Origin: an uncultured Desulfovibrio sp.
GTDB lineage: Bacteria > Desulfobacterota > Desulfovibrionia > Desulfovibrionales > Desulfovibrionaceae
DNA: 64,000 bases
Assembly (NCBI GenBank): GCA_913060505.1
Contig: CAJXRQ010000015.1
Location: 1-64,000, forward strand
Reading direction: 5' to 3'
The notes below the pieces were generated by a model that was not told where the DNA came from, did no database searches, and was given only the letters and a program-made list of their open reading frames with translations. Positions 12,595 to 63,462 of the stretch are shown piece after piece. The stretch's first letter is position 1, and every line of letters begins with the position of its first letter. The position numbers were made by a program, and so were the translations under genes.

Positions 12595-12632
12595 GATTAG
12601 CTCCGAAAAATACGGTTGTCGTGGACAGGCGT

Positions 12633-13124
12633 TCACTCCCGAATGTTCGGGGGAGGAAGAAGGGGAAGAACTTCTTCAAGAACGTCCTGCAGTTTTTTTG
12701 CCAGGGAACCGGGCAGGTCTTGAAACAGGTTTTTGTAGGCGGCAGCTGTGCTTTTCTGCAACTCCTTCAGGTACGCTTCTCCTACGGAAGTCAATTGCAC
12801 CAGCCGTTCGCGGCGATTGGACAGGTTGGGTTGCTTACTGACCAATCCCTCCCTTTCCAACCTGCTGACAAGGCGGCTGGTCGCGCAGTGGCTCAGGTGT
12901 GCTCCTTCAGCCAGATCGGCGATGCGCTGCGCCCCATGCCGGTATATGCGGAACAGGGAATTGAGCTGGCTGAAGGACAGGTCGAGTGAATGCATCGATT
13001 GAGCCATCAACGAAAAGACCTGTGCGGCAGCAAGTCCGTGCAAATGGTCGAATGTTTCTCCTAACCTGCCGGTCTCAATTGTTTTTTTAAGTTGTCGGTT
13101 TTGAATATGTGCATCCATGCACAT
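12633..13124 (-). CDS. MarR-family transcriptional regulator
   Basis: It encodes about 163 residues from the ATG at 13124, which has GAGG nine bases before it. The winged helix is clear: FSQLNSLFRIYRHGAQRIADLAEGAHLSHCATSRLVSRLEREGLVSKQP, then the wing NLSNRRERLVQLTSVGEAYL. It is the first gene of a pair with the MFS exporter and diverges from nikA. Family members repress their own operon and release DNA on binding a small phenolic or drug-like ligand. A 10-bp palindrome in the divergent region is a candidate site. Confidence 0.88.
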   Translation of the reverse strand: MCMDAHIQNRQLKKTIETGRLGETFDHLHGLAAAQVFSLMAQSMHSLDLSFSQLNSLFRIYRHGAQRIADLAEGAHLSHCATSRLVSRLEREGLVSKQPNLSNRRERLVQLTSVGEAYLKELQKSTAAAYKNLFQDLPGSLAKKLQDVLEEVLPLLPPPNIRE

Positions 13125-13258
13125 GTCTTTATGCCTCAGGATGAAACATGTCAAGAGCACAGCCCGGAGGCAGGTTAATCACAAGGACTTCAGGGCTATC
13201 TGTATGGAGAAACATTAATAAATAGCAAAAATACAAAGGAATGGAAAAGTGTCGAGTG

Positions 13259-13285
13259 TTGACACAATCTTTTGTACTACGTAGT
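13259..13285. promoter_or_regulatory. Palindromic operator candidate in the marR/nikA divergent region
   Basis: TTGACA stands at 13259-13264 and the perfect palindrome ACTACGTAGT at 13276-13285, within the spacer expected for a promoter from that -35 box. It lies 57 bases upstream of nikA and 150 bases upstream of the MarR start. No matching -10 element is clear. Confidence 0.4.
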
Positions 13286-13341
13286 TGTAGCACGAATATT
13301 AAATCCATAATCATTTAAACGACAAAAAAAGGATTAATGGC

Positions 13342-14940
13342 ATGGGGAAGGTGTCTCGTTCGGTTCTTGTTGCTGCTGTCGTACTATTTGTTCTGACTTT
13401 ATGTCCTTGCATCCTTCAGGCTGCGCAAAAGGATACGTTGCATTATTCATGGTCCGCAAACGTGGGGCCGCTGAATCCACATGCGTATTCGCCAAACCAG
13501 ATGTTTGCGCAGGCCATGGTTTATGAGCCATTGGTTGCGTATGGCCAGGGTGGAAAGATCACACCCTGGCTGGCGGAATCATGGACGGTTTCTCCTGACG
13601 GCAAGACCTACGTCTTCAAGCTGCGCAAGGGGGTTCGCTTTTCGGACGGAACACCGTTCGATGCCAAGGCCGTGAAAATGAATTTCGACGCGGTGCTGAA
13701 AAACGCACAACGTCATAACTGGCTGGAATTCATCGCCCAGATCGATTCCACCAAGATTTTGGACAGCCATACGTTTCAGCTCAATCTCAAGCATGCGTAT
13801 TACCCGACCCTGCAGGAGCTTTGCCTTATCCGGCCCATGCGTTTCCTGTCTCCTTCGGGTTTTCCAGAGAGCGGAGACACTTCCAAAACCATCAAGGCCC
13901 CCATCGGAACCGGTCCATGGAAGCTGGTGGAAAGCCGCAAAGGCGAGCACGACATATTTGAGGCCAATGAATTGTATTGGGGCACCAAACCTGGCTTCAA
14001 GCGCCTTGTGGTCAAGGTTATTCCCGATTCGGACGGCAGAGCGATCGCCTTTGATACCGGTGAAATTGATTTGATTTATGGCTCTGGCGGTCATGGCAGC
14101 GGACAGATCGGTCTGGATACCTTCACCCGTTATCAATCCATGAAGGGCGTGATGACCGGAATTTCCTCGCCGCTGGCGACCCGTGTGCTGGCCATCAACA
14201 GCAACCGTTTCCCCACCAAGGATCTGGCCGTGCGCAAAGCTATCCTGCATGGCGTGAACAAGGCTGCCATCGTCAAGCACATCTTCCTTGGCGTCGAACC
14301 GCAGGCGGATACCCTGTTTTCCCCGGAGATGCCGTATTGTGATCTCGGCCTTGCCCCGTACTCTTTTGACCCCGATCAGGCTGCTGCCTTGTTGGAATCG
14401 GCCGGATGGAAGTTTGTCGACGGCAATGAATATCGCACCAGGAACGGCAAGGAGCTGGGCCTGGACCTTTGTTTCGTGGGTAATGATTCCCTGCAGAAAT
14501 CGGTGGCCGAGGTCATGCAGGGCGATCTGAAACGGCTCGGCGTCAAGGTTCGCCTTGTGGGTGAGGAAAAGGATTCATTTCTTACGCGGCAGAAAAGCGG
14601 TGAATTCGGCATGATTTTCGGCGATACGTGGGGAACTCCATACGATCCCCATTCCTTTTGCAGCTCAATGCGCAAGCCGGCCCACGCCGACTATCAGGCT
14701 CAGCTCGGCCTGCCCATGAAAAAGGACATAGACCGCAAGATCGGCGAGGTGCTCATCAGCGTGAACGAGAAGAACCGTCAGGAGCTCTATCGTGACATTC
14801 TGACCACGCTGCATGAACAGGCCGTGTATTTCCCGCTCTCTTACATGACCAACATCTTCGTATATCGTCCAGGCTTGAAGGGCGTGGGATTCGGGCATAC
14901 CAAGTACGAAATCCCCTTTGAAACGATGTATCGGGATTAG
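13342..14940 (+). CDS. nikA: Nickel ABC transporter, periplasmic nickel-binding protein NikA
   Basis: The 532-residue precursor has a signal peptide (about residues 1-28) and matches E. coli NikA along its length, for example NVGPLNPHAYSPNQMFAQ, MVYEPLV, LKHAYYPTLQEL, APIGTGPWKL and FGMIFGDTWGTPYDPH. The histidine H448 in KPAHADYQAQ corresponds to the histidine that contacts the nickel-chelator complex in E. coli NikA. This separates it from general peptide-binding relatives. It delivers nickel to NikBC; in sulfate reducers nickel serves [NiFe] hydrogenases and CO dehydrogenase. It is the first gene of a tightly packed five-gene operon. Confidence 0.94.
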   Translation: MGKVSRSVLVAAVVLFVLTLCPCILQAAQKDTLHYSWSANVGPLNPHAYSPNQMFAQAMVYEPLVAYGQGGKITPWLAESWTVSPDGKTYVFKLRKGVRFSDGTPFDAKAVKMNFDAVLKNAQRHNWLEFIAQIDSTKILDSHTFQLNLKHAYYPTLQELCLIRPMRFLSPSGFPESGDTSKTIKAPIGTGPWKLVESRKGEHDIFEANELYWGTKPGFKRLVVKVIPDSDGRAIAFDTGEIDLIYGSGGHGSGQIGLDTFTRYQSMKGVMTGISSPLATRVLAINSNRFPTKDLAVRKAILHGVNKAAIVKHIFLGVEPQADTLFSPEMPYCDLGLAPYSFDPDQAAALLESAGWKFVDGNEYRTRNGKELGLDLCFVGNDSLQKSVAEVMQGDLKRLGVKVRLVGEEKDSFLTRQKSGEFGMIFGDTWGTPYDPHSFCSSMRKPAHADYQAQLGLPMKKDIDRKIGEVLISVNEKNRQELYRDILTTLHEQAVYFPLSYMTNIFVYRPGLKGVGFGHTKYEIPFETMYRD

Positions 14941-44165: not shown

Positions 44166-45023
44166 CTAGTGCCCTTCGACTTTCGGCTTTTTGCGAGCGT
44201 TGGGAATCTCGAAAACAAGCGTGGCAGTCAACTTGCTGGTCAAATATTCCTTGTGCTTGTTTTTCGGCGCTGGCGTTTTGATGAAGAATCGCACGAACCA
44301 ACGGCCAGTTGTATCCAACGGCAACTTGATCAAACCATCGTCGATTTTGGCGCGTTGAAAATACATGTCCTCGGCCTGAGTGGAATAACCATTATAGGTC
44401 GCATCCCAGAAGCCTTCTCCCCTGTAGGGCTTGCCGTAACGATAGACCTTGAATTCTGCGACACCACCCTTCTTGTAAGTAGACGGATCCTTGACCGGCA
44501 CCAACTCCAACGGCATGCCGATGACACCCGGAAATGGCTCGGACGGTTTGTCGCAAACAACATATGTTTTGGTCCATTGCTTGCTGAAAATACTTGTTTC
44601 CACGGAAGAAGCCTTGTCGGCAATTGCGCTGAGAGGCTTGATGGAATGACGCTTCCTCCCTTTCTTGTCTGTCCAGCGGGTGAAATAGCCGGGGGACGTT
44701 TCCGCGGTCAATACGTAGGTTCCGGGCTGCTCGTAATCCACCATGTATGAATGCAGGGATTTGCCTTCGCGAAGAGCGACCGGAACGATGGATTTGTCAG
44801 GGCGTTGAATTTGTACGTTGTGAAGTTTTTCCTTGCGCAGGGCGTCGTCCACGGGGAAATGATGCCCGTAGCAGAAAAAGAGGGGCGAAACCTTGCCCTT
44901 GGAAACATGATAGCGCGATGCCTGAATGAAAAGGGAATGGGCCTTTGCCACATGGGGCGGGAGGCAAAGAATGCAGGCAACGGCCAAGAGGGCCGCCGCC
45001 AAAAGCGGTTTGCGAATTGTCAT
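44166..45023 (-). CDS. Periplasmic DUF4198 (NikM-like) protein
   Basis: The 285-residue precursor starts at the ATG at 45023 (AGGAG upstream). The signal peptide ends HVAKA, and cleavage there leaves histidine as the first mature residue (HSLFIQASRYHV). The rest fits DUF4198, a beta-rich periplasmic family linked by context to nickel, cobalt and iron uptake (FFCYGHHFPVDD, PGTYVLTAETSPGYFTRW, LPLDTTGRWFVRFFI). It lies 16 bases after a Fur-family regulator gene and probably shares its transcript. I infer a metal-handling role in the periplasm; no ligand is proven. Confidence 0.78.
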   Translation of the reverse strand: MTIRKPLLAAALLAVACILCLPPHVAKAHSLFIQASRYHVSKGKVSPLFFCYGHHFPVDDALRKEKLHNVQIQRPDKSIVPVALREGKSLHSYMVDYEQPGTYVLTAETSPGYFTRWTDKKGRKRHSIKPLSAIADKASSVETSIFSKQWTKTYVVCDKPSEPFPGVIGMPLELVPVKDPSTYKKGGVAEFKVYRYGKPYRGEGFWDATYNGYSTQAEDMYFQRAKIDDGLIKLPLDTTGRWFVRFFIKTPAPKNKHKEYLTSKLTATLVFEIPNARKKPKVEGH

Positions 45024-45039
45024 TTGATTCTCCTGAATA

Positions 45040-45501
45040 TTAGTGATGTCTGTTACTCTGCTTCTGGTTGGGCAGGTGTTCCTTGAGGCATTCGTGGCAG
45101 AGTCCGAAAATTGTTGTCTGGCTGCGAAACATCCGAAATCCTTCCTGCCGTGCGCTTTCCTGCTGCAAACACTCAAGATATGGATTCAGAATGGGGATTT
45201 TCCGTCCGCATTTTTCACAAATGAGATATGACGTATGGCCTTCGCTTGGTTCATACCGCGTGGTGCCGTCTCCATAGTGGACGCAACGGGCAAGGCCGGC
45301 CTGCTGCAAATGTTTGAATGTGCGGTAAACTGTGGAAAGGCTGATACCCGGATCAATTTCCGTTACCTGCCTAAAAAGTTCTTCCGCCGTAAGCAACTGG
45401 GAACCGCTCACAAAGATATCCAGAATAAGCTTGCGCTGGCTGGTCAGTTTGAGCCTGTTGGCCTTGAGATATTCCTGAAAGGTCCGTGTTGTGCCACTCA
45501 T
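45040..45501 (-). CDS. Fur-family transcriptional regulator
   Basis: The 153-residue protein has the Fur winged helix (LTSQRKLILDIFVSGSQLLTAEEL, GISLSTVYRTFKHLQQAGL) and the metal-site region SEGHTSYLICEKCG with a second cysteine pair in LCHECL, suggesting a structural zinc. The usual HHDH motif is replaced by HTSY, so the regulatory metal site differs from classical Fur. It diverges from feoA across 258 bases that contain a Fur-box-like repeat. It could be the iron repressor of both arms, or a Zur/PerR-type relative. Confidence 0.9.
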   Translation of the reverse strand: MSGTTRTFQEYLKANRLKLTSQRKLILDIFVSGSQLLTAEELFRQVTEIDPGISLSTVYRTFKHLQQAGLARCVHYGDGTTRYEPSEGHTSYLICEKCGRKIPILNPYLECLQQESARQEGFRMFRSQTTIFGLCHECLKEHLPNQKQSNRHH

Positions 45502-45670
45502 GGGTGATCCTGTGTTGTGAAATGCGTCTGTTTCTCATTTTCGCATGTGGTATTCATGACTTGTTTATGGATGCTTTTCTTGTGATTTTGAAGCTCGTTT
45601 TCAATTGTTGTTTCAATTTTATTGATGTTTTTAACCCAAGTTGCAATCTGTTCGCAATTTGCTTTTTTCT

Positions 45671-45720
45671 TTGACACTGTATGCCCCGCGGCCTATTTAT
45701 GATGACGAAATTCATTATCA
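45671..45720 (+). promoter_or_regulatory. Promoter and Fur-box-like operator of the feo operon
   Basis: TTGACA (45671-45676), a 17-base spacer, and TATTTA (45694-45699) make a near-consensus sigma-70 promoter. Directly behind, 45700-45720 is an inverted repeat with half-sites TGATGACGAA and TTCATTATCA (8 of 10 pairs match), close to the known Fur box. It would cover the transcription start. feoA begins 40 bases further on. Confidence 0.75.
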
Positions 45721-45759
45721 GCACAGGCCCATGATTGCAAGGGGCCAGAGTGAGGGCAG

Positions 45760-45984
45760 ATGGAAACATCAAAAACATTGAATTCCGTTGAGGCCGGAGG
45801 CAGCGCGCTGGTGGTTGGCATCCGCGCAGGAAGCAAGGCGCAAAGTCGACTTGAGTCCCTGGGCCTGGTTCCGGGAACCATGGTGGAAGTTCTCAACAAT
45901 GGTGGTGGTCCCATGCTTGTTTGCGTGGGCGAAGGGCGCGTCGTTGTTGAACGCGGCATTGCCGAAAAGGTGTTGGTGGCCTGA
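45760..45984 (+). CDS. feoA: FeoA-family protein (first copy)
   Basis: The 74-residue protein has the SH3-like FeoA fold with RLESLGLVPGTMVEVLNNGGGPMLVCV and VVVERGIAEKVLV. FeoA is a small cytoplasmic partner needed for FeoB function. A good site (GAGGG) precedes the ATG. It is the first gene behind the Fur-type promoter and is followed by a second feoA. Confidence 0.92.
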   Translation: METSKTLNSVEAGGSALVVGIRAGSKAQSRLESLGLVPGTMVEVLNNGGGPMLVCVGEGRVVVERGIAEKVLVA

Positions 45985-46024
45985 ACGTGGCCGGCACAAA
46001 AAAGCAAGAAGACGGAGAAACGGC

Positions 46025-46243
46025 ATGACTCTGGATGAATTGACTCCGGGAACCGGGGGAGTAATGAAAGATTTGACGGCCGAAGGGGCTTTGGGCCAAC
46101 GGCTCATGGATCTCGGCTTTTATCCGGGTGCGACTATAAAAATAGTACGCAACGCACCACTGGTGGACCCGATTGAACTGGAGCTGGACGGCTATCACGT
46201 CAGTATCCGGCATGACGAAGCGCGTCATGTGGAGGTCGAGTAA
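46025..46243 (+). CDS. feoA: FeoA-family protein (second copy)
   Basis: It encodes 72 residues: MTLDELTPGTGGVMKDL, RLMDLGFYPGATIKIVRNAP and DPIELELDGYHVSIR are classic FeoA features. The site GGAG is ten bases before the ATG at 46025. The stop TAA is directly followed by the feoB ATG. The two FeoA proteins are clearly different from each other, so they probably have separate contacts on FeoB rather than being a recent duplication. Confidence 0.92.
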   Translation: MTLDELTPGTGGVMKDLTAEGALGQRLMDLGFYPGATIKIVRNAPLVDPIELELDGYHVSIRHDEARHVEVE

Positions 46244-48736
46244 ATGAGTTCGCAAACCCTTCTGGTTGCCCTGGCCGGGCAGCCGAACTGCGGTAAGTCC
46301 ACGGTTTTCAACATGCTTACCGGCGCGCGCCAGCATGTGGCCAACTATCCCGGCGTAACTGTGGAAAAAAAGGTTGGTCATTTTCGTACGGATTCGCGTC
46401 GAGTTGAGTTGGTGGACCTTCCGGGAACCTACAGCCTGAGTTCCTATTCGCTGGAAGAGCGTGTGGCCCGGGATTTCATTCTCCATGATCGCCCGGACGT
46501 GATCGTGGACGTGATGGACGCTTCCAACCTCAAGCGCAATTTGTATCTGGCCCTGCAACTGTTGGAAATGGAAGCCACGGTCGTTTTGGACCTGAACATG
46601 ATGGACGTTGCCGAACGCCGAGGCATAAGTGTGGACCATGCCGGCCTTTCCAAACACCTTGGCGTGCCTGTGGTTCCCACGGTGGGCAAAGCTGGTGTCG
46701 GCGGCAAGGATCTCAAACGGATTTTGGACGAAGAGGCGGAAAAGCCGAACAAGGCATCGTATAAAATTGATTACGGCACCATGGAGCCGTTTATCCAGAA
46801 GATGCAGGATCAGGTCGTTTCGGCCATGCAGTTGCCCGAGACCTACCCGCACCGCTGGGTTGCATTGAAGCTGCTGGAAAATGATGCCGAAGTCCTCAGG
46901 CTGGCAACGGAAGATCCGAAGAGTTCGGAAACGTTGACGCGTGATATCGAGCAACTGCGCAAGGACTTTCAGGAAGAGACCGGAACGCCGGCAGAGCGTC
47001 ACATCGCTTTTGCCCGGCACCGTTCCTGCGCGGCTATCTGCCGTGATTACATGAAGCTGCCAGAGCAGAAAAGGGCCAGTCTTTCCGACCGCGCGGATAA
47101 ATTTGTATGCAACCGGTTCTTCGGGCCGTTGCTGCTGATTGCCATTTTGTTCGTGCTGTATGAGGTTTCCATCGTTTTCGGTGGATGGTTGGCCGTTAAG
47201 GTCTGGCCTGTCTGGGGAGCTGTGGAGGCTTTTGCCGCCAAGGTGTTGCCACAGGCAGGATTTCTTGAGGATCCCCTTTTGCGTGGGCTGGGTGTATGGG
47301 TTGTCAAGAGTACCACGGCAATTCTTAACTATTTGCCCATCTTTTTTCTGCTGTTCGCGCTTATCGCCATTTTGGAAGACAGCGGATACATGCCGCGTAT
47401 GGCCTTCATTCTGGACCGGCTGTTCCGCCGTTTCGGTCTGCACGGCCAGTCCACGCTGCCGCTGATTTTGGGTGGTGTTTATGTGGGCGGTTGTGCCATT
47501 CCCGGCGTCATGGCTACCAAAGCCATACCCGATGAACGTGCGCGGCTGGCGACCATACTCATTGTTCCCATGATGAACTGCCTGGCCAAGGTTCCGCTTT
47601 ATCTGATTCTGATCGGGGCCTATTTCCCCGAACACGGCGGGCTTGCCATGTTCTTTATCGCCACGGTGACATTGTTCATGGCTTTGCCTGTAGCCAAGAC
47701 GCTTTCCCTGACAGTTTTGGGCAAGCGGGAAAGCGCTCCGTTTATCATGGAAATGCCTCCCTACCATTTGCCGACGGTTACCGGTGTATTGCGCCGCGCT
47801 TTTGAGCGTATCTGGCTTTTCCTCAAGAAGATCGTGACGGTTGTCGTGGCCGTGGCTGTGGTTATTTTTGTGCTGATTAACTTCCCCGGCCTGAGCGAGA
47901 AGCGGGAAGCCTCGTATCAGGCCCAGCAGGAAGCTGTCGTCGGCAAGTTTATGAAAGTGGTGGATAAGACTTCCTATAAGGGAGAACTTCTCCCGGCGGA
48001 CGTCCCGGAAATAGTGCTTTTTGCAGACCGGCTCAAGAATGCCAAACGCGGGTTGACGGACAAGAGCGCTGCCGCTGCCGTGAACAAGTCGTTCGAGCAG
48101 GCCAACCCGATCTATTATGCCGTGGTCAAGCGCAAGGGCGCGGACGGCAAGAAGTTGAACAAGGCCTTCAAAAAAGTGGTCAAAACCCGCAAGAAGTTAC
48201 GCCGCGAAATGCGTGCCGAGCGTTTTGAATCGAGCTTCCTTGGCGTGTTGGGACGTGCCCTTGAACCTGTAACCAAGTATGCCGGTTTCAACTGGCGCAT
48301 CAACATCGCGCTTTTGTCCGCATTTGCGGCCAAGGAAAACAGCGCTGCGACCTTGGGCTCCATTTACGGCATAGATGGCAGCGGATCGGTGCAGGAGAGC
48401 ATGAAAGCCGGTGAAACCGGATTCACAGCGCTGCACGCCTTGGCGCTGATGTTGTTCATGGCTTTGTATCCTCCGTGCGTACCAACTTCCATCATGGTGC
48501 GCATGCAATCCGGTTCCAACAAATGGATGCTGTTCTCTATTTTATATCAGACCCTGTTGGGCCTTGGCGTGGCCGTGTTGGTATTCTCCGGCGGTAAAAT
48601 GCTGGGATTGTCCGGTCTCCAGGCCATGTGGGGCTTCTATGGCTTATGCGTAGCAGCCACCGTGATCATGGCTTTGATACCGGATAGGAGCGCGCAAAAG
48701 GCTGATATTGGCAAAACATGCAAACAAAATTGTTGA
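46244..48736 (+). CDS. feoB: Ferrous iron transporter FeoB
   Basis: The 830-residue protein has an N-terminal G domain with G1 GQPNCGKST, G2/switch region VANYPGVTVEKK, G3 DLPGTYSL and G4 NMMD, a helical spacer, and a membrane part with two gate regions (GGVYVGGCAIPGVMATKAI and a second near LMLFMALYPPCVPTS). The insert at about residues 555-650 before the last helices is long and Lys-rich (KRKGADGKKLNKAFKKVVKT). It imports Fe(II) across the inner membrane. Two feoA genes precede it and exported accessory genes follow. Confidence 0.96.
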   Translation: MSSQTLLVALAGQPNCGKSTVFNMLTGARQHVANYPGVTVEKKVGHFRTDSRRVELVDLPGTYSLSSYSLEERVARDFILHDRPDVIVDVMDASNLKRNLYLALQLLEMEATVVLDLNMMDVAERRGISVDHAGLSKHLGVPVVPTVGKAGVGGKDLKRILDEEAEKPNKASYKIDYGTMEPFIQKMQDQVVSAMQLPETYPHRWVALKLLENDAEVLRLATEDPKSSETLTRDIEQLRKDFQEETGTPAERHIAFARHRSCAAICRDYMKLPEQKRASLSDRADKFVCNRFFGPLLLIAILFVLYEVSIVFGGWLAVKVWPVWGAVEAFAAKVLPQAGFLEDPLLRGLGVWVVKSTTAILNYLPIFFLLFALIAILEDSGYMPRMAFILDRLFRRFGLHGQSTLPLILGGVYVGGCAIPGVMATKAIPDERARLATILIVPMMNCLAKVPLYLILIGAYFPEHGGLAMFFIATVTLFMALPVAKTLSLTVLGKRESAPFIMEMPPYHLPTVTGVLRRAFERIWLFLKKIVTVVVAVAVVIFVLINFPGLSEKREASYQAQQEAVVGKFMKVVDKTSYKGELLPADVPEIVLFADRLKNAKRGLTDKSAAAAVNKSFEQANPIYYAVVKRKGADGKKLNKAFKKVVKTRKKLRREMRAERFESSFLGVLGRALEPVTKYAGFNWRINIALLSAFAAKENSAATLGSIYGIDGSGSVQESMKAGETGFTALHALALMLFMALYPPCVPTSIMVRMQSGSNKWMLFSILYQTLLGLGVAVLVFSGGKMLGLSGLQAMWGFYGLCVAATVIMALIPDRSAQKADIGKTCKQNC

Positions 48737-48751
48737 AGAAGGAGTTTTCAA

Positions 48752-49069
48752 ATGAAGAAATTGATGATTCTCACATTGACTTTGGCTGCTCTGGCTTTTG
48801 CTGCAACAGCTTTTGCCCACAGCCCCCTGTGCGACTGCTTTGACAACGGTGACGGCACAGTAACCTGCGAAGGCGGTTTTTCGGACGGTTCCTCGGCTAC
48901 CGGCGTTAAAATGTACGTCAAAGACGGTGCCGGTAAAGTGCTGCAGGAAGGCGCCATGAACGCGGACAGCGAATACAATTTCAAGAAACCTGAAGGCAGC
49001 TACTCTGTGTTTTTTGATGCAGGCGAAGGCCATCAGGTCACGGTGAACGGTTCGGATATCGTGGAATAA
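48752..49069 (+). CDS. Small periplasmic protein with Cys motif, NikL-like
   Basis: The 105-residue precursor has a clear signal peptide ending ATAFA; cleavage leaves mature HSPLCDCFDNGDGTVTC, that is an N-terminal histidine followed by CxC and a third cysteine. The rest (FSDGSSATGVKMYVKDGAGK, GSYSVFFDAGEGHQVTV) resembles the one-domain NikL/carboxypeptidase-regulatory-like proteins of nickel importers, from memory. AAGGAG precedes the ATG, 15 bases after feoB. A metal chaperone role is my inference. Confidence 0.65.
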   Translation: MKKLMILTLTLAALAFAATAFAHSPLCDCFDNGDGTVTCEGGFSDGSSATGVKMYVKDGAGKVLQEGAMNADSEYNFKKPEGSYSVFFDAGEGHQVTVNGSDIVE

Positions 49070-49084
49070 TGGAACAGGCACAAA

Positions 49085-49122
49085 CCGGAGGATCGGCACC
49101 GGGTCGATCCTCCGGATTTTTT
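49085..49122 (+). terminator. Internal terminator or attenuating hairpin in the feo operon
   Basis: CCGGAGGATCG (49085-49095) pairs perfectly with CGATCCTCCGG (49105-49115), followed by ATTTTTT. It separates the feo genes from the DUF4198 gene at 49177 and could reduce, rather than end, transcription into the second half. Confidence 0.85.
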
Positions 49123-49176
49123 CCCCAAAGGCTGAAAACAGGAATCAAATTCATTTCAAAACAAGGAGAGTCAGTG

Positions 49177-50004
49177 ATGAAAAAAGGTTTGTTTGCGGCG
49201 TTTGCCCTTCTTGCCGTGGTGGCCATGGCAATTCCGGCATCGGCGCACTTCATGATGGTCTACACTCCGGAAATTGCCTTGGACAAAGGCAAGGATATGG
49301 ATTTCCGCATGGTGTTCACCCACCCGGCCGAAGCCGGACACACCATGAACATGGGCGGCGTGAAGGAGTTTTACGCCATGTTCCAGCGCGGTGATTCCAA
49401 GGCCAAGAAAATTGACCTGATGCCGTACGTGAAGGAGATCAAGTGGACCAACCCTGAATCCTCCAACACCGCTTACTCTGCAATGCTGCCCAAAAAGCTT
49501 GTGCGTTCCATGGGCGACTACACGTTCGTGTTCGTGCCGGGCTACTACTATGAAGAAGAGGAAGGCCTCTACATGCAGCAGATCGCCAAGCTGATCGCCA
49601 ACGTGGGCGGCATCCCGGGCAACTGGGCCGAACCTGTTGGCCTGCCCTGCGAAATCGTTCCGCTGATCAAGCCCTACGGCATGTGGACCGGCAACGTCTT
49701 CAAAGGTCAGATCCTTTCTCAGGGCAAGCCCGTTCCCGGTGCTGAGGTGGAAGTGGAATACATGAGCCACATGCCGAATCTCAGCAAGAACGGCATGCCT
49801 GCCAAGAGCTCCGTGAACTACCCGCATGATTGCATGGTCACCCAGACCATCTTCGCGGACGCCCAGGGCTACGTGACCTTCGGTATCCCCAAGGCTGGCT
49901 GGTGGGGCTTTGCCGCACTGGGTGTGGGGCCGATGACCGAATACAAAGGAAAGGAAATGTCTCAGGACGCCGTTCTTTGGGTCAAGGCCGTTGATATGAA
50001 ATAG
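49177..50004 (+). CDS. Periplasmic DUF4198 (NikM-like) protein
   Basis: The 275-residue precursor starts at the ATG at 49177 with AAGGAGAG in front. The signal peptide ends IPASA, leaving mature HFMMVYTPEIALDKG with an N-terminal histidine. DUF4198 features are DFRMVFTHPAEAGHTM, GDYTFVFVPGYYY and LSQGKPVPGAEVEVEYM, with a C-terminal carboxypeptidase-regulatory-like domain (QTIFADAQGYVTFGIPKAGWWGF). It is a second member of the family in this island, after 44166-45023. It probably captures or presents a divalent metal in the periplasm. Confidence 0.82.
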   Translation: MKKGLFAAFALLAVVAMAIPASAHFMMVYTPEIALDKGKDMDFRMVFTHPAEAGHTMNMGGVKEFYAMFQRGDSKAKKIDLMPYVKEIKWTNPESSNTAYSAMLPKKLVRSMGDYTFVFVPGYYYEEEEGLYMQQIAKLIANVGGIPGNWAEPVGLPCEIVPLIKPYGMWTGNVFKGQILSQGKPVPGAEVEVEYMSHMPNLSKNGMPAKSSVNYPHDCMVTQTIFADAQGYVTFGIPKAGWWGFAALGVGPMTEYKGKEMSQDAVLWVKAVDMK

Positions 50005-50096
50005 TTGCTATCCGAAAAGGTTGCGCTTTTGTGGAGGGCGGACCATCTGGTCCCCCCGAAACACAGGCAAAAGGGCTCGACACTCGGAGGGGAGCG

Positions 50097-50768
50097 ATGA
50101 TTATGGGCCGAAAGCTTGAGGACATGCATCCGGTGCGCGAAGAGTTCGTACGACCGTGCAATGGCGGATCGGAGACGTGGTGGTTGATTGGTTGTGCCCT
50201 GCTTACATTGACCATATGCTCGTTGAGCATTGGTGTTCGAAAGGCAAATGTTCAATCACAGTCTCTGCATTCCTGGCAATTGAACGCCTTCCGCGATCTT
50301 CGTGCCGAAGAGCGGGGAACCTACAGTGCCTTGTACACTGCCGCCATCGAGATAGACGATACCCATCAAAATGGCGACGGCGAATGGCTTGAAGTTTCGG
50401 ACATGGAACAGGACTTTGTGCCGCCATTTGTTCACGATGCCGCCTGGAGGCGTCAGGGCAAGCTTGTCTGGCAGCGAAAACTGCTTCCTGCCGGAACATT
50501 GGACATGGCCCTGTATCTCGGCGAGCCACAGCAAAAGGAAATTTCCGGGTCGTTTCTGTTGGTCATGCAACATTCCCACGGCAATGGTTCCGGCCATGCC
50601 GCACCATCCACCCATCCTTCACACGAAATCTGGTACAGCCCCTCTCCTCATCCCAGACTTCCAGCGTCGTATACGGATCAGGCCTTGATTACATCCGGCT
50701 GGAAAGAGGTCGTTCCGTTGCGGGGCAGGGATGAAATCATGCGGACCAAGGGAGAAAACGTATCGTGA
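50097..50768 (+). CDS. DUF6162-family protein with His-rich C-terminal part
   Basis: The 223-residue protein starts at the ATG at 50097 (GGAGGGG upstream). One transmembrane helix (WWLIGCALLTLTICSLSIGV) anchors it; the rest should be periplasmic. LNAFRDLRAEERGTYSALYTA and DFVPPFVHDAAWRRQGKLVW resemble DUF6162 proteins that stand with Zn/Mn-type ABC importers, as remembered. The segment HSHGNGSGHAAPSTHPSH carries six histidines and looks like a metal-binding tail. The last bases overlap the GTG start of the binding-protein gene. Confidence 0.72.
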   Translation: MIMGRKLEDMHPVREEFVRPCNGGSETWWLIGCALLTLTICSLSIGVRKANVQSQSLHSWQLNAFRDLRAEERGTYSALYTAAIEIDDTHQNGDGEWLEVSDMEQDFVPPFVHDAAWRRQGKLVWQRKLLPAGTLDMALYLGEPQQKEISGSFLLVMQHSHGNGSGHAAPSTHPSHEIWYSPSPHPRLPASYTDQALITSGWKEVVPLRGRDEIMRTKGENVS

Positions 50769-51688
50769 TTCGAATTTATTTGTTGGCCATGGTCCTGCTC
50801 TGCATGCTGGTTTCTCCTGCTGGCGCAGACAGCGGCAAGCGGCTTCGCATTGGTATAACGCTCCATCCCTACTACAGTTTTGTGGTCAATATTGTTGGAG
50901 ACAGGGCCGAGGTCGTGCCGCTCATCGGCGAGGGCTTCAACCCACATAATTATCGGCCCCAGCCTGCGGATATAAAACGGTGCATGACGCTGGACGTTTT
51001 GGTCGTCAACGGCATCGGCCATGATGAATTTGCCACGGAAATATTGAGAGCGGCAAACATGGAGGGCAGGATTCCGGTTATCCAATCCAACAAGGACGTT
51101 TCCCTGATTCCTGTCTCCGGGACACTGGATGGAAAAAAGATCGTCAATCCCCATACTTTTGTCTCCGTAACAGCCTCCATCCAGCAAATTTATACGATTT
51201 CCAAGGAATTGCAGAAGCTCGACCCTGACAATGCGCAGGAGTACAGGGAAAATACCAGAAAGTATGTTCGCAAGTTGCGGCGTATGAAAGCCGAGTACAT
51301 GCAGCGTGTCGCTGATTTGCCCGGTCTGGATTTTCGTTGTGCAACCATTCATGGCGGCTACGATTATCTTTTACAGGAATTTGGGCTTCAGGTTACGGCC
51401 GTTATTGAACCGGGGCACGGTCTCAAGCCTTCCGCAAGCCAATTGGCAAAGACCATTGAGAAAATTCGTAAACTCGGCGTGGAAGTCGTTTTTACCGAGA
51501 TGAATTTTCCGGATAAATATGTGGACACCATCCATGCGGAAACCGGAGTACGCATCCGTCATCTTTCACACCTGACCTCCGGCGCCTATACTGCAGACAG
51601 TTTCGAAAAGGGAATTCGTGCCAATCTGAAAGCGCTTGTGGATGCCTTGATCGAAGCCTACCAGCTGCGGCAGGGAGAGGCTTCATGA
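50765..51688 (+). CDS. Metal ABC transporter substrate-binding protein (ZnuA/MntC class)
   Basis: It encodes 307 residues from a GTG start that overlaps the preceding stop. A signal peptide (ending SPAGA) is followed by an A-I cluster fold. Candidate metal ligands are H61 in NPHNYRPQPADI, the histidine in IVNPHTFVS, the histidine in CATIHGGYDYLL, and the acidic residue in TEMNFPDKY, as in Zn/Mn/Fe receptors. There is no long His-rich loop; that feature is on the neighbouring DUF6162 protein. It works with the following ATPase and permease. Confidence 0.88.
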   Translation: MIRIYLLAMVLLCMLVSPAGADSGKRLRIGITLHPYYSFVVNIVGDRAEVVPLIGEGFNPHNYRPQPADIKRCMTLDVLVVNGIGHDEFATEILRAANMEGRIPVIQSNKDVSLIPVSGTLDGKKIVNPHTFVSVTASIQQIYTISKELQKLDPDNAQEYRENTRKYVRKLRRMKAEYMQRVADLPGLDFRCATIHGGYDYLLQEFGLQVTAVIEPGHGLKPSASQLAKTIEKIRKLGVEVVFTEMNFPDKYVDTIHAETGVRIRHLSHLTSGAYTADSFEKGIRANLKALVDALIEAYQLRQGEAS

Positions 51689-52410
51689 CCGTACCGACCA
51701 ATGCCATGGGACCGGCCATCCATTTTGAAAGAGTCGGGCTGCAACTGGGGGGCAATTGCATTCTTTCCAATGTGGATTTTTCCGTTGAACCCGGCACCAT
51801 TCATTGTATTATCGGTCCCAATGGCGGAGGAAAGAGTTCACTGGTGCGCTGCCTGTTGGGGCAAATGCCGCACACCGGAACAATCCGGATCGGTTGGGGG
51901 ACGGGCAATGTCATCGGCTATGTGCCGCAATCCCTCGACTTCGATCGAACCCTGCCCATGACCGTGAAAGATTTCATGGCCATGATCTGCCAGAATCGAC
52001 CGGCGTTTTGCGGCCTGGGGCGCAAGTATGGTCCCATCGTGGAACATGCCTTGAAAATGGTGGGCATGGAAGGCAAACGCCAGCGTCCTTTCGGGGCTCT
52101 TTCCGGCGGAGAGCGCCAGCGGGTGCTGCTGGCACAAGGATTGATTCCCAAGCCCGACCTGCTGGTGCTGGATGAACCCGGAACGGGGTTGGACAAAGCC
52201 GGAGCCTCCATCATGCGTGACCTGCTTGCGGATCTGAAAGAGCGCGGCGTGACTATTCTGATGATTCATCACGATCTGGCCGAGGTCCGGGATATGGCGG
52301 ATTCCGTGACCTGTATCAATCGGAATCTTGTTTTTTCCGGCGAGCCGGAAGTTGAATTGACCCCGGAAAAGATTTTGAATGTTTTTTCTCCGGCAGGAGG
52401 AACGTGTTGA
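51685..52410 (+). CDS. Metal ABC transporter ATPase (ZnuC-like)
   Basis: The 241-residue ATPase has Walker A GPNGGGKSS, the Q-loop VPQSLDFDRTLPMTVKDF, signature LSGGERQRVLLAQGL, Walker B LLVLDEPGTGLD and switch IHHDL. It overlaps its neighbours on both sides, which shows a coupled operon. Confidence 0.9.
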   Translation: MTVPTNAMGPAIHFERVGLQLGGNCILSNVDFSVEPGTIHCIIGPNGGGKSSLVRCLLGQMPHTGTIRIGWGTGNVIGYVPQSLDFDRTLPMTVKDFMAMICQNRPAFCGLGRKYGPIVEHALKMVGMEGKRQRPFGALSGGERQRVLLAQGLIPKPDLLVLDEPGTGLDKAGASIMRDLLADLKERGVTILMIHHDLAEVRDMADSVTCINRNLVFSGEPEVELTPEKILNVFSPAGGTC

Positions 52411-53315
52411 TGCATGCCTTCTATGATCTGCTTCGTATTCCGTTGATTGAGATGGGCAGAAACGGCGTTTTGCCTGAATTCTTTCAGTATGCGTTTGTGA
52501 TCAATGCGCTTTTGTGCTCCCTGTTGCTTGGTCCGGTTCTGGGCGGGGTGGGCACCATGGTCGTGACCAAGCGGCTGGCCTTTTTTTCTCAGGCCGTAGG
52601 GCAGGCGGCCCTGACGGGTGTGGCGCTGGGTATTTTGCTGGGCGAGCCCATTTCCGCGCCGTATGTCTCCCTGTTCGGATTTTGCATTTTATTCGGACTG
52701 CTCATGAACTACACCCGCAACAGGACAAACATGTCCACGGATACGGTTATCGGCGTATTCCTTTCGGTCTCGTTGGCCATGGGCGCCTGCATTCTGCTTT
52801 ACGTGACCGGCAAGGTGAACATGCATGTTTTGGACAATATTCTGTTCGGATCGGTTTTGACGGTGAATGATACCGACATGAATGTATTGTTGATTATCAG
52901 CGGCTTGTGCCTGCTGATTGGTATACCTCTTTACAACAGGATGCTGCTGGCCAGCTTCAATCCGAGTCTCGCCCGTGTGCGCGGAGTGAACGCAACCTTG
53001 TACGATTATATTTTCATTCTCATGATTACCGTGCTGACCGTGGCTTCACTCAAGATCGTCGGTGCCGTTCTGGTGGAAGCCCTTTTCATCATTCCGGCGG
53101 CCGCAGCCAGAAATGTGAGTCGATCCATGAAGGGTTTTTTTCTGTACAGCATGATTATCGCCACAGCCAGTTGCATACTCGGTATCATTTTGCCCATGCA
53201 GTTTGAAATTCCTGTGCCTTCGGGCGGAGCGATCATATTGGTAGCGTCATGCTTTTTTGCTCTTTCGGTTTTGATCCGGGCTTCTTCTACCGCATTCCGG
53301 GGGGCTAGCGCATGA
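52410..53315 (+). CDS. Metal ABC transporter permease (ZnuB-like)
   Basis: It encodes 301 residues. The ATG at 52410 has AGGAGG nine bases in front and shares one base with the preceding stop; a GTG at 52404 is too close to that site. Eight or nine helices with family motifs: VVTKRLAFFSQAVGQAALTGVALG, TDTVIGVFLSVSLAMG and LKIVGAVLVEALFIIPAAAARN. It forms the membrane channel of the importer. Confidence 0.9.
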   Translation: MHAFYDLLRIPLIEMGRNGVLPEFFQYAFVINALLCSLLLGPVLGGVGTMVVTKRLAFFSQAVGQAALTGVALGILLGEPISAPYVSLFGFCILFGLLMNYTRNRTNMSTDTVIGVFLSVSLAMGACILLYVTGKVNMHVLDNILFGSVLTVNDTDMNVLLIISGLCLLIGIPLYNRMLLASFNPSLARVRGVNATLYDYIFILMITVLTVASLKIVGAVLVEALFIIPAAAARNVSRSMKGFFLYSMIIATASCILGIILPMQFEIPVPSGGAIILVASCFFALSVLIRASSTAFRGASA

Positions 53316-54241
53316 TCAAGCGAGTTGTCTTTTTTCTGACCCTGTTGCTTGTATTGCCAGCCTGCACGCCCAAGCCGGTCAATGCCGTTTCGCAGGAACG
53401 AGTTGTTTTGGCCTCGCAATCCGTGACCTTTGCGCTGGGTTCAGTTTTGGTCAAAGGAACGCCGATTGCCATGGTCCGAGCTGTTCCGGATGCCTATTCT
53501 CCCGGAGGGCACGCGGCATATTTCAAAAAACATTGGGAAGATTTTCAAAGTTTGGCGAGTAGCGCCGATGCCGTGCTGTGCACGACCGGCGTATGGCCGG
53601 ATGATCCCCTGTATCCATGGGCACGGCGCGCCAATATTCATGTTGTGAACGTGGATGCCACGCACCCTCTTGATTACAGCCGTGCTGGTGTTCCTCATGG
53701 TGCGAAGGGGCATGGAGCTGTTTCACCCGTATGGGTAGCGCCCGGCAATCTTGCGCGTATGGCGGACATTGCAGGGGCGGATTTTATGCAATTGTATCCG
53801 GAACATGCAAAGCGGATTGGTGAAAATATCAGGCTGTTCAAACAGCAACTTTTCCGTTTGCGCAGTGAATTTGAAGTTTGGCTCGTAGCTGCGCCATGGT
53901 TTCGTGTCGTCGCCCTGACGCCGGATTTTGCTCCGCTGCTCGAAGAGTTCGGCGTTGAGACTGTGGAAACCTTGAGCAAGCCGGAGAATCATTGGACGGC
54001 GCAGGACGTTGAACGATTGGAAGGAGTGTTGACCGACAACCATGTACATGTGGTAGTGTGTGCATGGACACCTCGTGCGGACATAGCCGAAGCCATTGCC
54101 CGTGCCGGAGCCCAGGTGCTGGTGTTGAAGGCGTTTCCGGGTTTTGAAAGCCCGGATGCTTCAAGTGTTGTTGGGTATTATAAGAATAATTTGAAGCGTT
54201 TGCTGGACGCCATGTACGGTAACGCACATAAAAAATTATGA
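53312..54241 (+). CDS. Second metal-binding-protein-like lipoprotein (degenerate A-I cluster)
   Basis: The 309-residue protein has a lipobox, LPAC, at residues 15-18, so it is probably lipid-anchored. The overall shape follows the Zn/Mn-binding proteins (DVERLEGVLTDNHVHVVVCA, AGAQVLVLKAFPGFE), but the expected metal histidines are replaced: VPDAYSPGG stands where DPHxYxP is usual, and VSPVWVAP where NPHxWLSP is usual. A nearby HGAKGHG segment may compensate. It could be an accessory subunit, a scavenger for a different metal, or an inactive paralogue. It overlaps the permease gene (ATGA). Confidence 0.75.
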   Translation: MIKRVVFFLTLLLVLPACTPKPVNAVSQERVVLASQSVTFALGSVLVKGTPIAMVRAVPDAYSPGGHAAYFKKHWEDFQSLASSADAVLCTTGVWPDDPLYPWARRANIHVVNVDATHPLDYSRAGVPHGAKGHGAVSPVWVAPGNLARMADIAGADFMQLYPEHAKRIGENIRLFKQQLFRLRSEFEVWLVAAPWFRVVALTPDFAPLLEEFGVETVETLSKPENHWTAQDVERLEGVLTDNHVHVVVCAWTPRADIAEAIARAGAQVLVLKAFPGFESPDASSVVGYYKNNLKRLLDAMYGNAHKKL

Positions 54242-54252
54242 TGGAGGTCGGT

Positions 54253-54429
54253 ATGGATACGGCTATAGCGTTGATTATTGTTGCAGTGGCTGCGGTATAT
54301 GTTTTTCGTCGCATGCGGCGCAACATGTCCGGTAAGTCCAGTTGCGGGTGCGGGAGCGATTGCGGCTCCTGCTGCGGCAACGATTCCAACGAAAGCTGCT
54401 CTTCCCAAAAGGATGCGCCTCTGAAATAG
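54253..54429 (+). CDS. FeoB-associated Cys-rich membrane protein
   Basis: It encodes 58 residues from the ATG at 54253 (GGAGG five bases upstream). One helix (TAIALIIVAVAAVYVFRRM) is followed by CGCGSDCGSCC and one more Cys, seven or more cysteines in a short tail. This is the layout of FeoB-associated Cys-rich proteins. It is the last gene before a strong terminator. Its presence ties the ABC part to iron. Confidence 0.82.
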   Translation: MDTAIALIIVAVAAVYVFRRMRRNMSGKSSCGCGSDCGSCCGNDSNESCSSQKDAPLK

Positions 54430-63066: not shown

Positions 63067-63462
63067 CGGAAAATCTTTTGTAAGAGTAAAATATAAACTT
63101 TTATGGGTTAAGTATTCAACCACTTGGACGGTATTTCGATGATAACAAATACCGGGAACTCCGTAAAATGTCTGATTCTCCCTGCTTGGGAGAGCCTTGG
63201 TCAATTCTCTCCACGTTTCGTTTTTCCTTCTCTGTAATAACCCGTTTTCAATTTTATTAAACTACTTAATTAATTTGAATTTTACTTAAATAGGTTAATA
63301 AAAATTAAATTAATTAATTCAAAGCATTGACAATATATAATCGGGTTTGTATTTCACGCAAATGAAATTGAGTTTCAGTATCGTGAAGGGCTGAAGGTGA
63401 GCAGCTGGTCCCTGTCTCATTTTCAAATCAATTTCCAAATACTTTTTTCGAAGGGGAGAGTC
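63067..63462. other. 396-base AT-rich divergent regulatory region
   Basis: No gene is visible. It contains a long AT-only inverted repeat (63266-63283 with 63301-63317, one gap), a TTGACA at 63327-63332 with a poor -10 (TATTTC) 17 bases later, and the inverted repeat TGAAA-TTGAG-TTTCA at 63363-63377. The ribosome site AAGGGGAG for the receptor is just before 63463. Confidence 0.5.
63266..63317. promoter_or_regulatory. AT-rich inverted repeat, operator candidate for the MarR regulator
   Basis: TTAATTAATTTGAATTTT (63266-63283) pairs with AAAATTAAATTAATTAA (63301-63317) with a single unmatched base. The arms stand 17 bases apart. In very AT-rich DNA such matches can arise by chance. Confidence 0.4.

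Follow-up and report, generated by a model that had tools for sequence, protein, structure and literature searches.

A feoA-feoA-feoB operon of Desulfovibrio with exported proteins predicted to start with His and an optional Fpv-like ABC cassette: a probable periplasmic Fe(II) relay

The 64,000-nucleotide stretch of DNA analysed here (the window), from an uncultured Desulfovibrio sp., contains a metal-acquisition island that probably encodes a Fur-controlled periplasmic relay of Fe(II) feeding two inner-membrane pumps, built as a core with an optional cassette. Profile searches found every gene that an earlier note had named in the island in its place and in the expected family (Table 1). The island comprises 13 genes, two on the minus strand (a DUF4198 gene and fur) and 11, from feoA onward, on the plus strand, of which the final six run into one another, every one of their five junctions showing an overlap of 4-7 bases. 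The channel is of the Feo type, with a FeoB that carries both GTPase and Gate domains and two FeoA proteins alongside; the hairpin that follows the NikL-like gene was called by consensus scan alone, which returned 26 hairpins in the window where 15.8 were expected. The presence of a feo channel and an Fpv-type pump in one apparently iron-controlled operon suggests two pumps served by common periplasmic carriers.

Table 1. Genes and predicted sites of the island, in window coordinates
Feature	Position	Strand	Remarks
DUF4198 protein a	44166..45023	-	PF10670 134 bits; exported; predicted mature start His (AKA|HSLF)
Fur-family regulator	45040..45501	-	PF01475 87 bits; divergent from feoA
Weaker dFUR-box-like palindrome, fur-feoA1 gap	45588..45604	.	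12.4 bits
Tandem dFUR-box-like sites, 6 bp shift	45699..45721	.	16.9 and 11.9 bits; 38 bp before feoA1
FeoA, first copy (feoA1)	45760..45984	+	PF04023 57 bits
FeoA, second copy	46025..46243	+	PF04023 70 bits
FeoB, GTPase + Gate domains	46244..48736	+	PF02421 (FeoB_N) 216, PF07670 108, TIGR00437 483 bits
NikL-like small exported protein, FpvJ position	48752..49069	+	predicted mature start His (AFA|HSPL)
Hairpin, terminator-/attenuator-like	49085..49115	+	13 pairs, T tail; between NikL-like and DUF4198b
DUF4198 protein b	49174..50004	+	PF10670 172 bits; exported; predicted mature start His (ASA|HFMM)
DUF6162 protein, FpvK position	50097..50768	+	PF19659 57 bits; one N-terminal TM segment (hydropathy)
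SBP1, FpvC-like periplasmic metal-binding protein (putative)	50765..51688	+	PF01297 176 bits
ABC ATPase, FpvD-like	51685..52410	+	PF00005 84 bits
ABC-3 permease, FpvE-like	52404..53315	+	PF00950 180 bits
SBP2, FpvF-like lipoprotein	53312..54241	+	PF01297 partial match, 50.6 bits
FeoB-associated Cys-rich membrane protein	54238..54429	+	PF12669 39 bits

Whilst the earlier note had treated the full gene set as one system, the genes fall into a constant core (fur and feoA-feoA-feoB-NikL-like-DUF4198) and an optional five-gene cassette, which is missing from 13 of the 25 core-bearing genomes in the genus (the Pseudodesulfovibrio group, 36 genomes); deletion scars are seen in two of these 13. Where a genus genome carries the cassette (12 genomes), it lies inside the feo operon without exception, so that the conserved association of the ABC half with feo in relatives, on which that note had made its case depend, was indeed found. 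A sample of 247 genomes was surveyed across the class and 18 DUF6162 loci, the window included, were examined (a 19th match, L045, was sub-threshold, lacked the module and was left out); feo stands in the same order at 14 of them. Together, the class and genus counts argue that the association is no chance neighbourhood, and a plain Feo variant beside a chance neighbour was rejected on the genus linkage and the two deletion scars. Beyond the genus, feo and cassette are likewise joined in a Halodesulfovibrio contig and in MAG contigs of SAR324 and KSB3. The gene for DUF4198a varies in place: it adjoins fur in the window and at L038, L121, L122 and L133, but other loci have it at the opposite end of the operon or lack it. 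An apparent DUF6162 N-terminal domain in L038 (a tblastn match to L122 and L133) proved to be a wrong-frame reading of an HD-GYP-like gene. The suggestion that a Fusobacterium record is a misassembly was unsupported (record GC 27%).

Fur-box-like sites were scored with a position weight matrix built from Table 3 of PMC545781. The region upstream of feoA1 holds a predicted dFUR box (empirical p 0.009 for the region), the stronger of whose tandem sites ranks third in the window, two stronger Fur-box-like sites lying elsewhere; the Fur of the island is the weakest of the four Fur-family proteins found in this genome. Tandem sites 32-38 bp before feoA1 recur at 10 of the 14 linked loci (empirical p 0.003-0.031 each), the remainder having a single site without tandem (L030), a best site 218 bp off (L038) or weak sites only (L041, L043). 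Fur-box-like sites also precede four of the five unlinked cassettes tested (L037, L039, L042, L044), and none was found at the fifth, L054. Taken with the 12/12 linkage to feo and the FpvJKCDEF homology set out below, these sites bear out the earlier view that the ABC half goes with iron. The known counterpart is the set of Desulfovibrio feoA-feoA-feoB operons with tandem Fur boxes (Rodionov et al. 2004, PMC545781); unlike the operon described here, these are listed in the excerpt of that paper with no ABC cassette, NikL-like or DUF4198 gene.

The ABC half, hitherto labelled 'ZnuABC-like', is on homology better read as an FpvK-C-D-E-F cassette of DUF6162 protein, SBP1, ATPase, permease and SBP2. 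The label proved a poor guide to function, as the nearest solved relative of SBP1 (PDB chains 6ru4/6r3z) scores 331 bits, whereas the best zinc SBP reaches 92, and the equivalog models for ZnuA (51.1 of 268 bits) and AztC (132 of 350 bits) fall far under their cut-offs. The six His residues for which PDB 6r6k carries Gly are kept in 72, 73, 73, 72, 73 and 71, respectively, of 73 SBP1 ORFs; profile comparison places SBP2 in the same family as SBP1, with none of the six. HMMs built from the Desulfovibrionia set matched six of six products in Azospirillum and, for the four tested (J, K, C and F), all in Cereibacter and Vibrio. At the FpvJ position the NikL-like HMM scored 84.7, 82.6 and 50.4 bits in Azospirillum, Cereibacter and Vibrio, and at the FpvK position the DUF6162 HMM scored 75.6, 74.0 and, weakly, 18.5 bits; Azospirillum proteins at the FpvD, FpvE and FpvF positions gave 347, 397 and 247 bits with the ATPase, permease and SBP2 HMMs. 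A DUF6162 profile search of solved structures gave no match at E up to 1. The link to Pseudomonas aeruginosa Fpv runs through loci of Azospirillum, Cereibacter, Shinella and Vibrio and through PDB entries 6r6k and 6ru4, which we take to be FpvC. In seven plasmid loci of these four genera, with that of Shinella and three further Azospirillum loci among them, the module stands downstream of a PepSY reductase at the FpvG position, a place occupied in the present operon by FeoA-FeoA-FeoB.

In P. aeruginosa the layout is fpvGHJKCDEF; FpvC chelates Fe(II) in vitro, FpvF binds pyoverdine, and the roles of FpvJ and FpvK are given as unknown (PMC6954188). The Desulfovibrio operon shares the J, K, C, D, E, F order with homologous products, two SBPs with one ABC-3 permease, and a first SBP with six conserved His beside a divergent second. 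It differs in the DUF4198 gene inserted between J and K, in the feo genes at the reductase's place and in that neither FpvG, FpvH nor siderophore genes were seen in the operon; the genome (81% complete) gave no PepSY_TM match. That PepSY and DUF4198 exclude each other at module loci is a lead, since the PepSY profile was made from three proteins and the plasmid matches were hand-picked (10 of 15 among the matches listed, with 1310 more records).

The closest alternative, which we consider unlikely, is that the cassette serves iron chelates or siderophores, as its Pseudomonas counterpart does: an iron chelate would enter the periplasm through a TonB receptor encoded elsewhere, SBP2 would bind it and iron would pass to SBP1 and FpvDE, with feo merely under a common promoter. 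SBP2, in the position of the pyoverdine-binding FpvF and with zero of the six His, fits such a scheme, as do the 13 TonB-barrel matches in this genome, the TonB receptor some 10 kb downstream (G000:C15:64153) and the presence of at least one TonB-barrel match in 11 of 12 cassette-bearing genus genomes against 15 of 24 without the cassette. However, PepSY_TM, the FpvG family, occurs in just two of the 36 genus genomes and in one of the 12 with the cassette, one cassette-bearing genome (G167) gave no TonB-barrel match, and no receptor, reductase or MacAB genes were seen in the operon.

The exported proteins of the core are marked by histidine. In the NikL-like protein His23, the predicted mature start, and His94 are present in 60/60 ORFs, and in DUF4198b His26, likewise the predicted mature start, and His51 are present in 58/58; cleavage was judged by motif alone, the strict A-x-A/G-HF form occurring in 51 of the 58, and all nine survey ORFs matching DUF4198a have A-x-A-H. 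Both DUF4198 proteins belong by score (134 and 172 bits against a cut-off of 34) and by their predicted mature N-terminal His to the N-terminal-His class. Among solved structures the DUF4198b profile matched 9mhi/9mhk alone, named as another enzyme, over 64 positions, and the NikL-like profile matched an SdrD repeat domain (E 0.00027), its match to CopC falling short of significance (E 0.16). The secreted Ideonella DUF4198 protein (PDB 9GCB), which prefers Ni (Kd 18 nM) and whose neighbourhoods pointed its authors to nickel (PMC12537917), likewise combines an N-terminal His after signal cleavage with a second conserved His, although this is residue 18 of the mature protein as opposed to 26 here, and the present protein lies in an iron operon. 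In favour of iron, DUF4198 genes of Caulobacter are reported to rise 44- to 168-fold when iron is limiting or fur is lost (PMC3751524).

It is accordingly conceivable, but in our judgement improbable, that the metal handled by the His-first proteins and cassette is nickel or cobalt, or that they take several divalent metals, their place in a feo operon reflecting shared regulation of hydrogenase and iron metabolism. Beyond the Ideonella data, this gains from the weak match of the NikL-like protein to the NCBIfam NikL model (48.6 bits, below the cut-off of 100) and from NikK and NikL, named in the excerpt of Rodionov et al. (PMC545781) as added parts of NikMQO, which resemble the present pairing of a small, exported NikL-like protein with a DUF4198 neighbour. 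Nevertheless, the operon has no ECF nickel transporter gene as partner, the ABC transporter in it being FpvCDE-like; it carries a Fur-family regulator and Fur-box-like sites, the NikL-like and DUF4198b proteins come after FeoB in 25/25 genus operons, and in Pseudomonas the homologous module is an iron system.

An ordinary zinc or manganese importer downstream of feo by chance, as the Pfam families (ZnuA, ABC-3 permease) and the automatic annotation of such SBPs as zinc ABC transporter proteins would have it, is very improbable and was rejected on the subfamily scores above, on the presence elsewhere in the genome of a ZnuA (207 bits, contig C3) and an ABC-3 permease (247 bits, contig C1) that score higher, and on the missing Zur-box match (best before feoA1, 9/14 positions), the cassette moreover never lying outside the feo operon in its 12 genus genomes. 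The separate zinc genes L049 and L120, intended as positive control, had no Zur box of at least 11/14 positions either, so the control failed and zinc control is not demonstrable there. At L049 no SBP gene stands beside the ATPase and permease. ZnuABC and SitABC importers share the SBP, ATPase and permease superfamilies with the cassette, which differs from them in SBP subfamily, second SBP, DUF6162 partner and Fur-type site.

The reading we favour is the Fe(II) relay. It starts from what is observed, namely the genes and their order, homology, conserved residues, the presence and loss of the cassette and the Fur-box-like sites; the metal, the hand-over steps, the roles of SBP2 and the DUF6162 protein, and actual control by Fur are what we infer. 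The operon would be repressed by Fur and code for Fe(II) uptake, its core consisting of FeoA-FeoA-FeoB with the exported NikL-like and DUF4198 proteins and usually the Cys-rich membrane protein. With Fe(II) already in the periplasm as starting point, the mature NikL-like and DUF4198 proteins, predicted to begin with a metal-binding His, would bind iron and pass it either to FeoB, driven by GTP, or to the FpvC-like SBP1 with its six His, from which it would reach the FpvDE permease, driven by ATP; the FpvF-like SBP2, lacking those six, may bind FpvC or an organic iron ligand. Counted against this relay are the nickel preference of the sole DUF4198 protein with published binding data (PMC12537917), the nickel-system names of NikL and NikK, the 13 of 25 core genomes that manage without the cassette, the Pseudomonas module's use of a ferric siderophore and a reductase that are both missing from this operon, the TonB receptors of 11 of the 12 cassette-bearing genomes, which make a chelate route conceivable, and the stronger Fur-box-like sites elsewhere in the window together with the less regular sites at L030, L038, L041 and L043 and the lack of one at L054. 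A more specific version is possible rather than probable: the NikL-like (FpvJ-type) and DUF4198 proteins could be dedicated periplasmic Fe(II) chaperones with an N-terminal His site, serving FeoB. FpvKCDEF would then be an additional, ATP-powered exit from that chaperone pool, independent of both siderophore and reductase, with DUF4198 standing where the siderophore version has the FpvG reductase.

Searches of open-licence PMC found no paper on DUF6162; FpvC with Desulfovibrio returned only the FeGenie paper, whose matching excerpt does not join the two, and among the matches listed for DUF4198 with feoB, DUF4198 alone and the fpv cluster with feoB the layout is undescribed. Operons of feoA-feoA-feoB with tandem Fur boxes and the Fpv module are each known separately; what appears new is their combination in one operon without the reductase, for whose SBP subfamily the automatic 'zinc ABC transporter' annotation is misleading. 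To our knowledge, the route of Fe(II) to FeoB in the periplasm is an open question, for which the two His-first exported proteins found behind feoB throughout the genus operons are named candidates. If the chaperone reading is true, they would fill in how iron is handed to the most widespread ferrous iron channel, a step so far missing. The cassette, offering FpvC, FpvF, FpvJ and FpvK without a reductase and perhaps without a siderophore, may allow the roles of FpvJ, FpvK and the second SBP to be separated from iron reduction.

The earlier note had described a metal-acquisition island at 44166-54429, and domain matches confirm both its gene list and its coordinates. The block contains 13 genes, with DUF4198a and fur reading leftward, and feoA, feoA, feoB, a NikL-like gene, DUF4198b, DUF6162, SBP1, ATPase, permease, SBP2 and a gene for a Cys-rich membrane protein reading rightward (SBP1 and SBP2 being the two substrate-binding proteins of an ABC importer). 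feoB directly abuts the second feoA, neighbours share 4-7 bases at every junction among the six genes from DUF6162 through the Cys-rich gene, and DUF4198b is set off by 104 bases on one side and 95 on the other. The window comes from contig C15 of an assembly of 3.16 Mb and 81% completeness. A strong terminator-like hairpin with a T tail lies inside the operon, between the NikL-like gene and DUF4198b, and could determine how much core product is made relative to what is encoded downstream. In seven relatives DUF4198b is separated from DUF6162 (or from the Cys-rich gene) by an HD-GYP-like gene, which is not present in the 95-bp DUF4198b-DUF6162 gap of the window; according to PMC545781, an HD-domain gene is predicted within the Desulfovibrio Fur regulon.

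Features in and around the block and at related loci
Feature	Locus	Position	Remark
Fur-box-like site	window	13672-13688	outside island; among two strongest
Fur-box-like tandem	window	45699 and 45705	6 bp shift; 38 bp 5' of first feoA
Hairpin	window	49085-49115	T tail
Fur-box-like site	window	63362-63378	outside island; among two strongest
TonB-barrel match	G000:C15	64153 (start)	just past window end
Second feoAB	L050 (G000:C5)	11956-14069	adjoins TonB-barrel match
Split feoB	L036 (G167:C1)	1410392-1412855	two overlapping frames
SBP2 scar	L121 (G066)	9082-9243	between DUF4198b and Cys-rich gene
DUF6162 scar	L122 (G112)	about 8663-8770	ahead of Cys-rich gene
HD-GYP-like gene	L029	8935-9720	
HD-GYP-like gene	L031	9121-9807	
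HD-GYP-like gene	L035	9083-9859	
HD-GYP-like gene	L036, L038, L122, L133		

The solved structures nearest to SBP1 are 6ru4 and 6r3z ('Probable adhesion protein'), at 331 bits; the best zinc-binding SBP reaches 92 bits. 6r6k has the sequence of 6ru4/6r3z except that six His are replaced by Gly. SBP1 carries His at each of these positions (61, 86, 130, 196, 218 and 269), which are kept in 72, 73, 73, 72, 73 and 71, respectively, of 73 survey ORFs. We take these three structures to be FpvC of P. aeruginosa. Plasmid loci of Azospirillum and Cereibacter encode, in order, a PepSY reductase, a hypothetical protein, a ~105-aa hypothetical protein, DUF6162, SBP, ATPase, permease and SBP; the Vibrio plasmid run lacks the second hypothetical, scans recovered the PepSY-to-SBP run from an unannotated Shinella record, and TonB receptors occur in 6/7 of the fetched PepSY-module stretches. 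The layout of these plasmid loci is that of fpvGHJKCDEF as reported for P. aeruginosa (PMC6954188; listed as PA2403-PA2410 in PMC3195088). HMMs made from the Desulfovibrionia proteins and run against the plasmid products matched position by position in Azospirillum: the NikL-like HMM scored 84.7 bits with J and the DUF6162 HMM 75.6 with K, and those of SBP1, ATPase, permease and SBP2 matched C, D, E and F at 381, 347, 397 and 247 bits, respectively. The DUF6162 match to K of Vibrio is weak (18.5 bits). Judged by homology, the ABC half is Fpv-like.

In a profile comparison, the alignment of SBP1 with SBP2 spans 287 columns at a probability of 99, and the window's SBP2 has no His there at any of the six SBP1 positions. 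SBP2 is best seen as a maintained, divergent partner and not as a decayed copy, since no complete module surveyed lacks it; it also retains conserved Trp, Asp and Pro columns. A rotated module, running from DUF6162 to SBP2 and then to NikL-like and DUF4198, is found in Pseudomonas and Variovorax (L059, L064 and other Pseudomonas loci); it has no PepSY nearby and is distinct from the pyoverdine operon. A Fusobacterium vincentii record (L103, NZ_CP084075.1; 2.1 Mb, labelled plasmid, GC 27%) holds DUF6162, two SBP1 copies, ATPase, permease, SBP2, NikL-like and a divergent DUF4198.

DUF6162 matches were found in 17 of 247 sampled genomes of the class (16 over the cut-off), and 18 stretches were fetched around matches outside the window; no module surrounds the sub-threshold match (L045). 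The true loci number 18 including the window, of which 14 are feo-linked and four (L037, L039, L042 and L044, all from one genus) have the five-gene DUF6162-to-SBP2 cassette alone. A wider, non-exhaustive contig scan with two SBP1 peptide patterns gave 50 loci, of which those of Pseudodesulfovibrio (L053, L055), Halodesulfovibrio (L060), a SAR324 MAG (L057) and a KSB3 MAG (L058) are feo-linked, with possible mis-binning of both MAG contigs; feo is absent from the remainder (Pseudomonas, Variovorax, alpha- and gammaproteobacterial MAGs, L054 and L056). With contigs of matching length counted once (L053 = L032, L060 = L030), 17 distinct feo-linked loci remain, including the window. A tree of joined SBP1, ATPase and permease speaks against a single recent event of linkage: the main Desulfovibrionia clade of 23 tips (support 100) includes neither Halodesulfovibrio nor KSB3, with support of 51 for joining KSB3. 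Two linked loci, L041 and L043, have a far more divergent FeoB (842 vs ~1280 bits) and a single detected FeoA, though their cassette groups with the others; an exchange of feo, or a fresh joining of feo to the cassette, may have taken place here.

Within the host's genus, all 36 sampled genomes have some FeoB and 25 a close orthologue (at least 61% identity; interrupted by a stop in G247). SBP1 occurs in 12/36, all within these 25 and inside the feo operon. The other 13 retain fur / feoA, feoA, feoB, NikL-like and DUF4198b, bar gaps in L128 (single feoA, no fur match), and the cassette is absent from all 13 fetched loci. Two carry deletion scars, one of 54 SBP2 residues (63% identity to the window's SBP2) and one of ~27 codons of the DUF6162 start. 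Since the other 11 show no cassette remnant, the cassette may have been gained in some lineages. The split feoB of L036, in an otherwise intact operon, is either a real break or a sequencing error. In adjoining a TonB-barrel match, the second feoAB of the window's genome resembles the fepA-feoA2-feoB2 operon listed in PMC545781.

Fur-box-like sites were scored with a matrix built from published delta-proteobacterial Fur sites (PMC545781). The stronger site of the window's tandem ranks third in the window, and a tandem 32-38 bp before the first feoA occurs in 10/14 linked loci tested, several of the site-tested loci being close relatives and thus not independent; the exceptions are L030 (single site), L038 (strong site 218 bp off), and L041 and L043 (weak sites). 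Five unlinked cassettes were tested as well: sites lie 27-36 bp ahead of DUF6162 in L037, L039 and L044, that of L042 overlaps the assigned DUF6162 start, and L054 has none. Iron control of the ABC half itself is argued for most strongly by these Fur-type sites, which unlinked cassettes have of their own.

In the NikL-like proteins, His23, directly after the predicted signal peptide, and His94 are present in 60/60 ORFs, 49 of which show the strict A-x-A-H-x-P motif; in DUF4198b, His26 and His51 occur in 58/58 ORFs (strict motif in 51), and A-x-A-H occurs in 9/9 DUF4198a ORFs, all these counts including duplicates and near relatives. A 2025 study (PMC12537917) showed that one DUF4198 protein uses the N-terminal His together with His18 to bind Ni (Kd 18 nM), and that it binds Zn and Co more weakly; this favours metal carriage, though not iron. 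The DUF4198 genes of Caulobacter are reported as Fur-regulated (PMC3751524, PMC12004947), which favours iron. A purely siderophore-free reading has against it the TonB-barrel matches in 11/12 cassette-bearing genomes of the genus, 13 of these matches being in the window's genome.

No PepSY match lies within 7.5 kb at any DUF4198-bearing module locus, and no DUF4198 match was found in the seven PepSY module loci; PepSY_TM occurs in 2/36 genomes of the genus, one of them with the cassette. This exclusion is probably a feature of the module and not of the DUF4198 family, because flavinylation clusters, another DUF4198 context, are described as often containing both (PMC8238504).

Beyond the observed gene content, order, homology, residues, sites and losses, we propose a mechanism of which the metal, its transfer, the partners and the regulation are inferred steps. 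Fe(II), abundant as the reduced form in an anoxic periplasm, would be captured by the His-first proteins and handed either to FeoB or to SBP1-FpvDE. At the membrane, the transfer would be tethered or gated by DUF6162, and the pairing of SBP2 with SBP1 would mirror that of FpvF with FpvC. Both halves, Feo and the Fpv-like ABC module, are of known kinds, and no description of the joined operon or of the reductase-free module was found in the open-licence PMC literature searched.
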